Assembly: GCA_903820035.1 (NCBI GenBank)
Contig: CAIJFT010000219.1
Location: 1-35,108 of the forward strand
Source of the DNA: an uncultured Opitutia bacterium
Lineage (GTDB): Bacteria; Verrucomicrobiota; Verrucomicrobiia; Opitutales; Opitutaceae
Direction of reading: 5' to 3'
DNA: 35,108 bases
In this document: piece after piece, positions 9,170 to 14,792 of the stretch
Layout: each line of letters starts with the position of its first letter
How positions within the stretch are numbered: position 1 is the first letter of the stretch
Translations under genes and position numbers: made by a program
The notes under the pieces: generated by a model
Database searches by the model: none
Told to the model about the DNA's origin: nothing
What the model saw: only the letters and a program-made list of their open reading frames with translations

Positions 9170-9853
9170 TCACGCCAGCAGGCGGGCGAGTTCCGTGCGG
9201 CCGGACAGGCCGAGCTTGCGGTAGATGGCGTTGAGCTGGAACTCGACCGTGCGGAGAGATTTTCCCAATTGCGCCGCGACATCCTGGTTGCGACCGCCCC
9301 GCGCGACCAGCAAGGCGACTTGGCGCTCGCTGGGGCTCAGCACTTGCAGCAACGCCAGCACGTGAGGGCGCGGGCCCGGCGAGGCGGCACCGGTCGGGAT
9401 GATCGCGAGCAGATAGTCGACAAAGCTCAGGTTACTCCCGGCCTTCACGAGTCCCGCCACCGCGCCGGCATCCAGCGCACGCGGCTCGATATTGAGCCCG
9501 GCGCCGGGCTTGAAGAGATGCACCACGAGCAGACCGAGCCCGAGCGCCAGGGTCGTCACCACCTCGAAGTAGGCGATCGACTTGAATCCCATGCGACCGA
9601 CTTTTTTCAAGTCGCCGGTCGAACCAATACCAAGCGCCATCGTCGTGAAGATGATCGGCGGCAACATCAGGCGGAGGGCCTTGATGAAGGCGTCGGAGAT
9701 CGGCTTCAACTTCACCGCCCGCGCCGGCGCCACGCTCCCCAGCGCGACCCCGAAGACGATGGCCACGAAAACCTGAAAGTAGAGCGACGTGTAAAAGGGC
9801 TTGGGCGCCGCCTTCCCATAACGGGGTGGCATCGGACTGGGGTATGACGACAT
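9170..9853 (-). CDS. Chimeric protein: N-terminal third of a DctA-type transporter fused to a LuxR DNA-binding domain
   Basis: A 227-residue frame starting at ATG 9853, chosen because AGGA lies 8 nt upstream; the frame is open back to a TTG at 9874. From the 9874 start, residues 24-161 (KPFYTSLYFQVFVAIVFGV, then LMLPPIIFTTMALGI, then YFEVVTTLALGLGL, then FVDYLLAIIP) are the first three transmembrane segments of a dicarboxylate/proton (DctA, DAACS family) symporter. The match stops abruptly at IIPT. After a short linker, residues 179-234 are a complete LuxR-type helix-turn-helix (LSPSERQVALLVARG, TVEFQLNAIYRKLGL). The last two-thirds of the transporter and the receiver domain of the regulator are gone, yet the junction is in frame. 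By DAACS topology the HTH would follow TM3 on the periplasmic side, so function is doubtful. It is probably a deletion chimera, but it is still open from start to stop. Confidence 0.85.
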   Translation of the reverse strand: MSSYPSPMPPRYGKAAPKPFYTSLYFQVFVAIVFGVALGSVAPARAVKLKPISDAFIKALRLMLPPIIFTTMALGIGSTGDLKKVGRMGFKSIAYFEVVTTLALGLGLLVVHLFKPGAGLNIEPRALDAGAVAGLVKAGSNLSFVDYLLAIIPTGAASPGPRPHVLALLQVLSPSERQVALLVARGGRNQDVAAQLGKSLRTVEFQLNAIYRKLGLSGRTELARLLA

Positions 9854-9888
9854 CAACCTCATCCTAACCTGCAACGGGCGCCGGATCT

Positions 9889-9965
9889 ATCCGTGGAACC
9901 ACCTGAAACACCGCACCACGTCGCCGGCGTTTCAGGTGGTTTCACCGATTGTCGCCGCCACGGAT
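9889..9965. promoter_or_regulatory. Nested inverted repeat between the divergent dctA-luxR chimera and tartrate dehydrogenase gene
   Basis: AACCACCTGAAAC (9897-9909) and GTTTCAGGTGGTT (9929-9941) form a perfect 13-bp inverted repeat with a 19-nt spacer. Directly outside it, ATCCGTGG (9889-9896) is matched by CCACGGAT (9958-9965). The element fills most of the 130-nt gap between two divergent starts (9853 and 9984). That position suits an operator for a dimeric regulator, or a stem-loop in the leader of the dehydrogenase mRNA. What binds it is unknown; the natural suspect would be the LuxR-type regulator whose DNA-binding end survives next door. Confidence 0.6.
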
Positions 9966-9983
9966 CCGACGTAGGATCCCAAC

Positions 9984-11054
9984 ATGGAAAACTATCGAAT
10001 CGCCACTATCCCCGGCGACGGGATTGGCCGGGAAGTCGTCCCGGTCGGCATGCGCGTGCTCGACGCCGCCGCCAAAAAACACGGCTTCGCCCTTACGTGG
10101 GACGTCCGGCCCTGGAACTGCGATTTTTATCACGCGACCGGTCGCATGATGCCGGTCGACGCGCTCGCGCAGATCCGGCACCACGATGCGATCTTCCTCG
10201 GCGCCGTGGGTTTTCCGGGCGTGCCCGACCACGTTTCGCTCTGGGGCCTGCTGATCCCGATCCGGCGCGAGTTCCGGCAATACGTTAATATCCGCCCGGT
10301 CCGCCTCATGGCCGGCGTGACTCCACCCGTGCGCGATCGCGTCGCCGGTGATATCGACATGGTCATCGTGCGGGAAAACAACGAGGGCGAATACTCCGCC
10401 GTCGGCGGCCGCATCAACGAAGGCACCGAGGACGAGGTCGTGTTCCAGCAGTCCGTCTTCACGCGCCGCGGCGTCGACCGCATCCTGCGTTACGCGTTCG
10501 AGACCGCGCGGAGCCGGCCCAAGAAACACCTGACGTCGGCGACGAAATCGAACGGCATCACCATCACCATGCCGTTTTGGGATGAACGCTTTCAGGCCAT
10601 GGCGAAGCAGTACCCGGACGTCCGCACCGACCAATACCACATCGACATTCTCACCGCGCACTTTGTGCGCAATCCGCACTGGTTCGACGTCGTCGTGGGC
10701 TCGAATCTCTTCGGCGACATCCTCTCCGACCTCGGCCCCGCCGTCACCGGAACCATCGGCATCGCACCCTCCGCCAACCTGAACCCCGAACGCGAATTCC
10801 CCTCGATGTTCGAACCCGTCCACGGCTCCGCCCCGGACATCGCGGGCAAGGGCATCGCCAACCCGATCGGCCAGGTCTGGTCCGGCGCGATGATGCTCGA
10901 TCACCTCGGCCAGCCCGAGGCGGCCGCGACCGTCCTGCGCGCCATCGAGACGGTGGTACAGCACGGCCCGTGCACCCGTGACATGGGCCAAGGCCACACC
11001 GGTTCGACCCTCGCTGTCGCCGCCGCCTTGGTCGCCGCCGTCGAGGCCGCCTGA
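9984..11054 (+). CDS. ttuC: Tartrate dehydrogenase / D-malate dehydrogenase family (NAD-dependent decarboxylating)
   Basis: A 356-residue member of the isocitrate/isopropylmalate dehydrogenase superfamily. The N-terminus RIATIPGDGIGREVVP and the segments VIVRENNEGEYS and DILTAHFVRNP, with GSNLFGDILSDLGP holding the Mg2+-binding aspartates, are all present. The late segment EPVHGSAPDIAGKGIANP contributes to NAD binding. The wording LGAVGFPGVPDHVSLWGLLIPIRR is the tartrate/D-malate dehydrogenase branch, not the LeuB branch. These enzymes oxidise tartrate or D-malate, with decarboxylation of D-malate to pyruvate, in the cytoplasm. The start ATG 9984 follows the palindromic region. Next to it, divergently, lie the remains of a dicarboxylate transporter gene. 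That fits a former uptake-plus-catabolism unit for C4 dicarboxylates. Choice between tartrate and malate cannot be made from sequence alone. Confidence 0.88.
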   Translation: MENYRIATIPGDGIGREVVPVGMRVLDAAAKKHGFALTWDVRPWNCDFYHATGRMMPVDALAQIRHHDAIFLGAVGFPGVPDHVSLWGLLIPIRREFRQYVNIRPVRLMAGVTPPVRDRVAGDIDMVIVRENNEGEYSAVGGRINEGTEDEVVFQQSVFTRRGVDRILRYAFETARSRPKKHLTSATKSNGITITMPFWDERFQAMAKQYPDVRTDQYHIDILTAHFVRNPHWFDVVVGSNLFGDILSDLGPAVTGTIGIAPSANLNPEREFPSMFEPVHGSAPDIAGKGIANPIGQVWSGAMMLDHLGQPEAAATVLRAIETVVQHGPCTRDMGQGHTGSTLAVAAALVAAVEAA

Positions 11055-11088
11055 GTCCGTTACTTCCCGTCCTCCAAACCCCGAAGCC

Positions 11089-12995
11089 ATGCACCCGAAA
11101 TTGACCGCCACCCTGCTGCTCCTTGCCGGCAGCCCGCTCGCCGTCGCCCAGCAAGCCCCCGCCGCGATCACCGAGCCCACCGTCAAGTTGGAGGCCTTCA
11201 CCGTGACCGGCTCCAATATCAAGCGTATCGAGGTCGAACGGACACTGCCGGTGACGGTTCTGACCCCGGAGCAGTTGGACATCCGGGACGCGACGCAGAC
11301 GTCCGATCTCGTGACGGCGTTACCCATGGTCACCGGCCTCCCCGGCAACGAGACCGCCAACGCCACCCAGAACGCCAGGGGCGACAACGCCTCGGTCTCC
11401 TTCCGCGGCCTCGCCTCCGGCAACACCCTGATCCTGCTCAACGGCCGTCGCCTCGTCCCGCACCCGATCAGTCAGAGTGAGCGCGGCATTCCGGCGCTCT
11501 CGGTAAATATCAACACGCTGCCGAATCGCGGACTCCGCAGTGTCGACGTACTGCGCGATGGCGCCTCCTCGATCTACGGTTCCGACGCCGTCGCCGGGGT
11601 CATGAACTTCCGGATGAACACCGCCTTCCAAGGCACCGAGCTCTCCCTGAGCTACGGCCTGACCGGGCAGCGGGACGGCGATCAAGTACGCGCCACGCTC
11701 ACCCAGGGACTCCGCTTCGCGCAGGGGAAGGGCCGCCTCGTGCTGACCGCGGACTTCTCGAATCGCCGCGCGTTGTTTCAGAGCGCCCGCTCGTTCTCCA
11801 GTGACGGTGATCACATCGCCGCGGCCCCGGCCCCGTGGAACGTCTACTCGGACACCACGTTCAACGCGCGTACGACCACGAGCCAATACGGTCAGTTCAC
11901 GCTCGGCACCTTCAGCGGGTTCGGCACGTACGGCGCGCCCAACTTCACGGCGACGCGGCCGGCCGGCATCCCCGCCAGCTATGCGACCACGGCCGGCACG
12001 TTCTTTCTCGTTCCGCAGACCAACGGCAGTGTAACCCTCGCCACCGCTGCGCCCGCACGCAGTGCTGCGGGTCCCGGCCTCGATTACTATTGGAACCTGG
12101 CCGGCAGCCGCCTCATCCAGCCGCAATCGACGCGCGGCAGCCTCTATCTCAACGGCGAGTTCGATCTGTCTCCACGCGTCACCGCCTTCACCGACTTAAG
12201 CGTCTATCAATCCCAGTCGATCAGCTACCGCGACCCCGATGTCTATACGTCGAGTTCCAACGGTCCGATGATCGTGCCCGTCACCAATCCCTACAATCCG
12301 TTCGGCGATCGATTCTGGTCGCCGACCGGCGCCCCGAACGCCGACGGCACGCCGCGGCTTACCGGCACCCCGTCTGTCGTGAGCCTGGTCAGTCATCGTT
12401 TCGCCGATTTTGGCGTGCGCCAGGATACCGTCACCCATTCGCTCTATCGCGGCGTCGCCGGACTCCGCGGAAAACTCACCGATTCCTGGACCTGGGAAGG
12501 CGCTCTGCTCTACGGCCGGGGCCGCGCCATCGAATACGAACCCGCGGCGCGCATCAGTCTGCTGCAGGCCGCACTCCTGCAGACGAATCCGGCCAACGCG
12601 ATGAACCCCTTTGAGCGCACCTTCGCCGTGCGCAACGGGGCTTTGGTCGACACCGGGACGTTCGTGAATCCGCCCGCGGTTAAGTCCGCCATCTATGGCG
12701 ACTATATCCGCAACGGGATCACCCGCCTGGCCAGCGCGGATTTCCATGCGAGTGGCGACCTCCTGCCGCTCTGGCGCGGGAACAAGATCGGCGGCGCGAT
12801 CGGCGGCGAGTTCCGCTTTGAGAGCTACGACGACTACCGTCCGCCCTACGTCGGACTGAATCCCCCGAGCTCCGGACTGGATCCCATCATCAGCGATTTC
12901 GTCAGCGCCTCGTCCGTGCCGGATATGATACGGCGGTCTACAACAGCCTCGCCAAGGGCCGCGGCTACACCCTGCAGCTCACCCAGAAGTTTTAA
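11089..12995 (+). pseudogene. TonB-dependent receptor broken by an internal deletion and frameshift
   Basis: Starts at ATG 11089 with a signal peptide (MHPKLTATLLLLAG, cleavage after AVAQ). The plug is well preserved (EAFTVTGSNIKR, NTLILLNGRRLVPHP, VDVLRDGASSIYGSDAVAGV), and the barrel is readable to about residue 612, DFVSASSVPD. At that point (about 12920) the frame breaks. The usual C-terminal end of such receptors, GYDTAVYNSLAKGRGYTLQL and the terminal TQKF with TAA at 12993-12995, continues at once in another frame. The last stretch of barrel, probably several hundred residues, is missing between the two parts. The mutant frame instead runs on to a stop at 13042-13044. The C-terminal beta-strand with terminal Phe, needed for BAM recognition, is therefore out of frame. 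The product is presumably not assembled. Confidence 0.8.
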
Positions 12996-13040
12996 TGGCG
13001 GAGAACAGCTTGGAAAGTTCGGTGAGATCGGTCCTATCCC

Positions 13041-14792
13041 ATGAATATGAGCCCGCACCGCCTTCGTCTCGCCCTTGCGCTCGTCGCGTGGACCTTCGCG
13101 CTCGGCGGCCCCGCCCGCGCGCAGGGCCGCAACGACTGGCTCGAACCGTTTCCGGCCTTCACCATCGCGGGCAACCTCCACTACGTCGGCAGCAAGGGCC
13201 TCGCGAGCTACCTCGTCACCACCCCCAAGGGTCACCTCCTGCTCAATCCGTCCCTGGAGGCCAATGTGCCGTTGATCCGGAAAAGCGTGGAGGATCTCGG
13301 CTTCAAGTTCAGCGATATCAAAATCATCCTGATCAGCCACGCGCACTGGGATCACAACGCCGGCGCCGCGCGGCTCCAGGAAGCGACCGGCGCGGCCTAC
13401 GCGGTCATGGCGGCGGATGTCGCCGTCGTCGAATCCGGCGGGCGCGCCGATTTTCACTACGGCCGTTTTCCCGCCTCGCTCTATCCGCCGGCCAAGGTCG
13501 ATCGCCTGCTGCACGACGGCGACACGGTTGAACTCGGCGGCGCCGTGCTCACCGCCCGCCTCACCGCCGGGCATACGAAGGGTTGCACCACGTGGACCCT
13601 AAACGTGAGCGACGGAGGCCGGACGCTGCACGCGGTGATCATCGGCAGCCCCAACGTCAACTCGGGCTACAAGCTCGTCGCCAACGCCGCGTATCCTGAA
13701 ATTGCCGACGACTTCGCCCGGATGTTCGGCACGCTGAAGGCGCTGCCGTGCGATCTTTTCCTCGGCTCCCACGGCAGCTACTTCGGACTCGCGGAAAAAT
13801 ACCCGCGACGAAACCCCGCCGCCGCGAATCCGTTCGTCGATCCCGCCGGCTATCAACGCTACGTCGCGGACAAGGAGCAGGTATTTCGCACCGAACTCGC
13901 CCAGCAGCGGTCCGGTGAAACACCGGGCACCAAGGCCAAACGCCGGGCCCCGCCGAGCGTGGTGTTTATCGGCAACAGTTTCATGTTCGGGGCCGGCTCG
14001 CCCGTCCGGATCTACCGCGCCGACACCGTAACCGACCTGAACGGCGGCGGCATCGGCGGCGTGCCGGCGCTGTTCAAGTGCTTCGCGCAACAGGCCGGAC
14101 GCGATTTCGCCGTCAGCCTCGAAACCTCCGGCGGGAAGAATTTCGACTACCACGTGGAGCAGAAAGCCGACGTGCTCAGCCGTGCCTGGGACTATGCCGT
14201 CGCGCTCGGCTACAGCACCCTCGACAAGGACAAGCCCGGCGATCCGGCCTTGCTGGTCCGCTCCGCCGGTCAACTGGCGGAACTCCTGCGGGCCCAGAAC
14301 CCCGGCGTGGACGTCCGCCTGATCGCGACCTGGTCCCGCGCCGACCAGACGTATCCGACCAAGGGGCACTGGCACGGCAAACCCATCGCGCAAATGGCGC
14401 TCGATGTCCGCGCCGCCTACGATCTCGCCGCCCGCAGCTCCGTCGCGATTCGCGGTGTGATTCCCGTCGGGGAGGCGTGGAACCGCGCCATGCAGACCGG
14501 CGTGGCCGACCCGAATCCCTACGACGGAATCGACTTCGGCAAAGTGAGCCTTTGGACCTACGATTATTACCACGGCAGCACGTTCGGCTATTATCTCGAG
14601 GCCCTGATGATTTTTGGCGATCTCACCGGCCTGGACCCGCGATCCCTGGGTAAAAGTGAACGCGCCGCCTCCGACCTCGGCCTCTCCGGCGAGCAGGCCA
14701 CCGCCCTCCAAAAAGTCGCCTACGACGAACTGATGGCGATGCCGGGCCGCGCGCCCCTGCAGGTCTTCACGCCTGCAACTTCGGCCCGCTAG
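13041..14792 (+). CDS. Two-domain secreted protein: subclass-B3-like metallo-beta-lactamase plus SGNH hydrolase-like domain
   Basis: 583 residues with a signal peptide at about 1-28 (ending ARAQG). Residues about 30-290 are a B3-type metallo-beta-lactamase fold. They carry the zinc motif H100-A-H102-W-D104-H105, H178 in TAGHTKGCTTWT and H244 in FLGSHGSYFG, so all six B3 zinc ligands are present. The typical C-terminal helix YQRYVADKEQVFRTEL closes that domain. A basic linker (TKAKRRAPPS) leads into residues about 306-560, an SGNH-like hydrolase. This has nucleophile-type GNSF (Ser313), GYSTLDKDKPGDP, an ATWSRADQTYP segment and a final YYHGSTFGYYLEAL with a candidate catalytic His. I recall both halves as separate secreted proteins. 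The ATG overlaps the false stop of the broken receptor upstream. The substrate is unknown; beta-lactam hydrolysis is possible but unproven. Confidence 0.82.
   Translation: MNMSPHRLRLALALVAWTFALGGPARAQGRNDWLEPFPAFTIAGNLHYVGSKGLASYLVTTPKGHLLLNPSLEANVPLIRKSVEDLGFKFSDIKIILISHAHWDHNAGAARLQEATGAAYAVMAADVAVVESGGRADFHYGRFPASLYPPAKVDRLLHDGDTVELGGAVLTARLTAGHTKGCTTWTLNVSDGGRTLHAVIIGSPNVNSGYKLVANAAYPEIADDFARMFGTLKALPCDLFLGSHGSYFGLAEKYPRRNPAAANPFVDPAGYQRYVADKEQVFRTELAQQRSGETPGTKAKRRAPPSVVFIGNSFMFGAGSPVRIYRADTVTDLNGGGIGGVPALFKCFAQQAGRDFAVSLETSGGKNFDYHVEQKADVLSRAWDYAVALGYSTLDKDKPGDPALLVRSAGQLAELLRAQNPGVDVRLIATWSRADQTYPTKGHWHGKPIAQMALDVRAAYDLAARSSVAIRGVIPVGEAWNRAMQTGVADPNPYDGIDFGKVSLWTYDYYHGSTFGYYLEALMIFGDLTGLDPRSLGKSERAASDLGLSGEQATALQKVAYDELMAMPGRAPLQVFTPATSAR

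Follow-up and report, generated by a model that had tools for sequence, protein, structure and literature searches.

A transporter fragment joined to a LuxR-type helix-turn-helix beside a tartrate dehydrogenase gene in Opitutaceae: probably an inactive remnant of a recent deletion

Background

An uncultured Opitutia bacterium of the Opitutaceae harbors, on contig CAIJFT010000219.1 of GenBank assembly GCA_903820035.1, one open reading frame that joins the start of a DctA-type dicarboxylate symporter to a LuxR-type helix-turn-helix. The initial annotation of this 35,108-nt stretch (hereafter the window) left the frame between two readings, a deletion that happened to stay in frame and a membrane-tethered DNA-binding protein. 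The question raised by the locus is how the two halves came together and whether the joined product could still act.

Results

Frame and domains of the fusion

The frame was located at the coordinates first assigned to it, on the minus strand, which had not been stated (Table 1). Its description as an uninterrupted SDF/DctA frame ending in a complete LuxR/GerE helix-turn-helix was confirmed, both Pfam domains scoring above their cut-offs. In the numbering of a 234-aa version from an alternative start (TTG 9874; 9874..9170, minus strand), the SDF domain (E 9.3e-26) covered residues 31-162, or profile positions 1-125 of 387, and the GerE domain (E 1.9e-11) residues 177-232, or positions 1-56 of 57. 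Three hydrophobic regions were displayed by hydropathy before the helix-turn-helix (residues ~31-49, 63-84 and 100-127). Against the full-length DctA symporter model (NCBIfam NF002461), the fusion scored 158 bits for a cut-off of 513, with residues 25-176 aligned to positions 3-154 of 428. The two halves were alike in GC content at third codon positions (0.839 and 0.857) and resembled the neighboring tartrate dehydrogenase gene (ttdh, 0.857). A plus-strand ORF overlapping the fusion (9269-9847) gave no Pfam match up to E 0.1.

The transporter part kept 22 of the 25 columns that were at least 90% conserved in 37 homologues, and was the 7th most deviant of the 38 sequences (6 of 43 distinct frames were excluded as short). 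An AlphaFold model of the fusion, built on a 7-row alignment, reached block-mean pLDDT values of 80-97 in the helix-turn-helix and ~66-78 in the helices, and fell below 50 in the linker (residues 114-156). A fold search with this model returned no rows at E 0.001; most of the top rows were LuxR-type response regulators, with the helix-turn-helix as the aligned part, and sigma-H rows gave longer alignments but at ~20 A rmsd.

Table 1. Coordinates of the fusion, its promoter region and the adjacent genes in the window
Feature	Position	Strand	Remarks
Fusion CDS	9170..9853	-	227 aa from ATG 9853, stop at 9170 included
DctA/SDF-derived part	9395..9853	-	N-tail, three transmembrane helices, first residues of helix 4
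Fusion junction	9377..9394	-	~18 nt; by eye, clear match to neither parent when compared with dctA and luxR DNA of relatives
LuxR-derived part	9170..9376	-	Complete GerE helix-turn-helix and short lead-in
-10-like hexamer of fusion, TAGGAT	9861..9866	-	22 nt after operator; ATG 9853 7 nt further
Operator copy facing fusion, TTCAGGTGGTTCCACGGAT	9889..9907	-	Exact motif match
Operator copy facing ttdh, TTCAGGTGGTTTCACCGAT	9931..9949	+	Exact motif match
-10-like hexamer of ttdh, TAGGAT	9972..9977	+	22 nt after operator, 6 nt before ATG
Tartrate dehydrogenase (TIGR02089), full length	9984..11054	+	550.9 bits, cut-off 470.4
TonB-dependent receptor, broken	10978..13044	+	Internal deletion and frame change at about 12924

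Regulator and ttdh in related genomes

Genomes, contigs and loci are designated below by G, C and L numbers. Judged by its identity to orthologues, the helix-turn-helix of the fusion is the C-terminus of a LuxR-type regulator of ~370 aa belonging to the ttdh locus. A search of relatives, as the initial annotation had proposed, retrieved this regulator at full length together with ttdh in 16 other genomes (G006, G012, G017, G020, G120, G122, G124, G125, G127, G128, G172, G185, G241, G252, G253 and G254; ttdh was cut by the contig end in G120, and the two genes were ~5 kb apart in G012), and did not retrieve the same fusion. The sensor half was present in these 16 loci, and the part matching the fusion, far from being an unrelated sequence, was the regulator C-terminus (68-83% identity). 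Identity to the L055 regulator was 82% over residues 162-234. More broadly, ttdh matches at E 1e-120 or better were obtained in 19 of 252 family genomes, the source genome included, and the regulator was found within the stretch read in 15 of the other 18 (absent in G024, G205 and G207). The ttdh of the window was 91% identical to that of G254 and 90% to that of G006.

The features expected of a ttdh-locus LuxR-type regulator were partly retained: a GerE helix-turn-helix (59 of 70 residues identical to G254) and an operator-like motif in the locus were present, and the ~297-aa N-terminal sensor was missing. Relative to its orthologues, the helix-turn-helix is not decayed, as far as alignment of 15 regulators can tell. 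In raw counts against 12 other, mutually related regulators, it was more similar than the G254 domain in 9 comparisons (2 ties, 1 lower) and than the G006 domain also in 9 (1 tie, 2 lower). The L055 regulator contained no Pfam domain other than GerE, and part of its structural model was of poor quality (mean pLDDT 66); its best fold matches, in 7 rows reaching E 0.001, were VqmA and another LuxR-type regulator, with low TM-scores. From the secondary structure of this model, we read the lost sensor as a possible GAF plus PAS layout.

The fusion was found in 1 of the 252 genomes, the source genome itself, and in none of the 251 others (counting matches that reached E 1e-20, with no more than 11 first-look candidates scored in each genome), and a conserved fusion family was thus not seen in this bacterial family. 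Seventeen further SDF matches that aligned past residue 188 were all full-length SDF genes, none with such a helix-turn-helix attached; the sole helix-turn-helix match among their loci was the separate regulator of G172. A 223-aa dctA frame in G121 was rejected as a second fusion: it resulted from a frame change inside dctA, and no helix-turn-helix was visible.

A dctA gene directly before luxR was seen in no relative. Within the stretches read, several of which end early, dctA occurred in one of the 16 regulator and ttdh loci, and DASS-type carriers were matched in five others (L038, L041, L042, L069 and L072, the last two partial). None of 20 ttdh-locus stretches contained the downstream neighbor xdhC, which implies more than one rearrangement. 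No dctA fetched was more than about 55% identical to the transporter part of the fusion. In G185, a dctA 83% identical to that of the G172 ttdh locus lay on contig C193 (L147), with the contig end just upstream; the regulator and ttdh of this genome were on another contig.

Parent genes in the source genome

The window is an entire contig of a draft genome, probably a MAG (6.05 Mb, 469 contigs, 98% complete, 4.4% contamination). The initial claim that neither parent gene is otherwise present held inside the window but not for the genome, where two other SDF genes had long frames (C109, 461 aa, 44% identity; C163, 460 aa, 40%). The ~297-aa sensor half gave no match at E 0.001 or better in an assembly-wide search, and its best match in the window was only E 0.56. 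No second close helix-turn-helix was found in the genome (next best 42%). The missing remainder of dctA was not found as a loose piece, the only two matches to an SDF C-terminus falling in the C109 and C163 paralogues.

Operators and promoters

A 19-bp operator-like motif, TTCAGGTGGTTCCACCGAT, with an inner dyad GGTGG-TT-CCACC, was in most cases followed after 22 nt by TANNNT. At up to 2 mismatches, it was present in 16 of 16 loci with regulator and ttdh and in none of 3 ttdh loci without the regulator, a distribution that is partly so by construction, since some of the same sites had served to draw up the pattern and then to broaden it, and the loci are mutually related. Three further results depend less on that choice, the third of them in the source genome itself. 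In 30 of the 34 family sites, two of them in the window and 32 in related loci, TANNNT began exactly 22 nt downstream of the motif, against at most two sites at any of the 44 other offsets counted; a 35th motif hit outside these sites (L059, Solimonas, 2 mismatches) had no TANNNT at this offset. When 16 whole genomes were scanned, all 14 exact matches fell inside ttdh loci, and none in the 6 genomes without a regulator-ttdh pair. One-mismatch hits elsewhere were limited to G002, G008 and G127 (one each) and G205 (two), and the motif read backward as a control gave 1 hit across all 16 genomes. A search for ttdh in G002, G003 and G008 gave no match. An exact match was also observed in G016 just upstream of a regulator homologue (L040, 102-120), on a 9.2-kb contig with no ttdh match. 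The co-occurrence of motif and regulator suggests that the LuxR-type regulator binds the motif, presumably as an activator.

The source genome contained two exact matches, both between the fusion and ttdh, whose ATG codons are 130 bp apart; the 6 remaining hits all had 3 mismatches, and the backward control gave 7 hits. Both operators are contained in a 25-nt inverted repeat (9889-9913/9925-9949, 88%), and with the same operator and -10 layout on either side, the fusion and ttdh have near mirror-image promoters. If the hexamer occupies -12 to -7, the dyad would be centered near -43.5, the usual position for an activator touching the -35 region. The distance of 6 nt from hexamer to ttdh ATG was shared by the window, L038, L039 and L055, and no ATG stood there in other loci. 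With a start codon only 6-7 nt after the hexamer, the ttdh and fusion messages are probably leaderless.

Because the 5' part of the fusion carries the operator-promoter layout of the regulon, the transporter gene probably belonged to the regulon before the fusion arose. A parallel is found in G172, whose ttdh locus includes a full-length dctA; upstream of it is an MmgE/PrpD gene with an operator in front. This locus (L114, 5789-14350) holds ttdh, two MmgE/PrpD genes, dctA and four operator-like sites, which suggests a wider organic-acid regulon.

Neighboring genes and the broken receptor

The TonB-dependent receptor next to ttdh matched homologue L038 over residues 18-618 in frame 3 and 1038-1060 in frame 2, residues 619-1037 (~419 codons) being missing; its last 23 homologous residues continue in another frame at about 12924-12992. 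Because of this loss with a frame change, the tartrate-utilization locus looks to be decaying. Sixteen further receptor genes were matched in the genome, of which 14 had frames of at least 908 aa and the remaining two had 580 and 810 aa; large artefactual deletions therefore do not look general, and assembly-wide deletion noise was not supported. The missing receptor part was not found as a loose piece, the best matches falling in other long receptor frames. Contig C109 also holds a receptor with a 1089-aa frame near its full-length DctA gene, 58% identical to the broken receptor over the matched part.

Further along the window (13041-14792, plus strand), a 583-aa protein appears to be a subclass B3 metallo-beta-lactamase over residues 32-289 (307 bits, cut-off 240); the ~290 residues after this part resemble an SGNH-type hydrolase by eye, Pfam gave no name, and the matches to the two parts lie apart in L041. 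Two adjacent minus-strand ORFs (1825-2202 and 2209-2652) each matched a response-regulator receiver domain only.

Origin of the fusion

Fragments of two ancestral genes share one open frame, as is characteristic of a deletion-born fusion. We consider it fairly probable that the fusion is a recent, real, deletion-born remnant in a decaying tartrate-utilization locus, and that it is probably inactive. In the ancestor, ttdh would have lain on one strand, and a DctA-type symporter gene and, behind it, the LuxR-type activator gene of the locus itself would have diverged from it, each promoter having one activator operator adjoining its -35 region. A single deletion from within dctA to within luxR, of roughly at least 1.7 kb judged from the missing parts, would have taken out the final two thirds of dctA together with the regulator's sensor and left the frame open; a second deletion would have broken the TonB receptor. 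We infer the gene order before the deletion, the single event, the topology and the loss of function, and one deletion within dctA-luxR would be the simplest event.

The N-terminus of DctA is cytoplasmic and the third helix ends on the outer side, so the helix-turn-helix of the fusion is expected, by homology and hydropathy, outside the cytoplasm, which favors a recent relic. With three helices inserted and the helix-turn-helix on the outer side, the product would most likely neither transport nor regulate.

Relatives with the full-length regulator at the same locus and with the same operator lend good support to the earlier proposal of an in-frame deletion, as does the second deletion ~3.5 kb from the fusion junction. 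The remark that the frame has stayed open is true of the source genome; seen in one genome only, this openness may reflect recency alone. Against the deletion reading stand the dctA-luxR adjacency unseen in relatives, the xdhC neighbor missing from the other ttdh loci, the two odd junctions on one contig of a single draft assembly, which could also point to misassembly, and the undecayed state of the helix-turn-helix and the consensus operators. This undecayed state would also fit retained function, and a recent event predicts it equally well.

Discussion

The alternative in which the fusion is functional, as a sensor-less constitutive activator of its own promoter and of ttdh through the two operators, appears unlikely but not negligible. 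The product could be a membrane-anchored protein with a cytoplasmic helix-turn-helix, or translation could begin internally and yield a short, free helix-turn-helix. LuxR C-terminal domains that lack the sensor can be constitutively active, and the fusion holds the only close helix-turn-helix found in the genome, closer to most of the 12 other regulators than those of G254 and G006 and predicted to fold. Both operators are consensus with -10-like hexamers in place, and a free domain could be initiated at the GTG/TTG codons of residues 172, 175 and 178. As the helix-turn-helix and the operators show no visible decay, a self-driven activator, tethered or freed, keeps some probability; that the deletion turned the transporter and its own activator into one such signal-independent protein, anchored or released, acting on its two remaining operators and leaving ttdh permanently on, nevertheless seems improbable. 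The odd number of DctA helices would place the C-terminus outside, none of the late starts was flagged as having a Shine-Dalgarno-like stretch, the fusion is in one genome only at a locus whose receptor is broken, and recency accounts for the conservation just as well.

Misassembly is the main technical doubt, and a false joining of two separate genes in the draft genome is, in our judgment, rather improbable. The window being a whole contig of a 469-contig assembly, the junction shared with no relative and the second odd junction ~3.5 kb off on the same contig would all suit a chimera, as would, weakly, the absence of the junction from a viral contig set. Against this, the two halves are joined in frame on one strand and suit a single small regulon, neither the sensor half nor the remainder of dctA turned up elsewhere in a 98% complete assembly, and 14 of the 16 other receptor genes have frames of at least 908 aa. 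Very improbable is a replacement, in which a 5' fragment of dctA, operator included, entered luxR by insertion or recombination and displaced the sensor. It would account for the missing dctA-luxR adjacency in relatives and for the low identity of the dctA part to other dctA genes, but the fragment would have had to arrive with the right operator, -10 spacing and frame, and a deletion within an existing regulon needs less.

Among known proteins, the fusion shares with the DctA/SDF family (PF00375) the N-terminal third with three helices and lacks the rest of the fold, which includes the substrate- and ion-binding region. With LuxR-type one-component regulators, it shares the complete GerE helix-turn-helix and an operator-like site adjoining the -35 region, whereas its sensor domain is lost. 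CadC and ToxR are membrane-bound one-component regulators with the DNA-binding domain at the cytoplasmic N-terminus; like them, the fusion combines membrane helix and DNA-binding domain in one chain, but its DNA-binding domain follows three helices and is expected outside. Farr, Remigi and Rainey reportedly described in 2017 a spontaneous domain fusion with protein relocalization in Pseudomonas fluorescens, which arose and was selected in the laboratory. There, too, a domain reportedly reached the membrane through being fused to a membrane protein; in the present fusion, the expected membrane side of the domain is the wrong one.

Deletion-born fusion genes are a described class, and two fusions of the M. 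tuberculosis complex did not appear immediately functional, according to a preprint by Kaul et al. (PMC12803068). Its main text does not contain the terms transporter, LuxR, transcription factor or Verrucomicro-. As in those cases, a deletion would have joined fragments of two genes in one open frame; unlike there, both parents fit one regulon and a regulon-type promoter is kept, here in one draft genome. Titles and abstracts searched, covering few subscription journals, held nothing on this regulator, operator or fusion.

The fusion is an ordinary class of event in an unusually clear promoter context. Taken as a relic, it illustrates clearly how a deletion can fuse a transporter to its own regulator with a regulon promoter kept, and new regulatory proteins could naturally start from such a fusion. 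Of greater use, perhaps, is what emerged alongside it: for this bacterial family, an operator and a promoter, both sharply defined, that go with a LuxR-type regulator of tartrate dehydrogenase.
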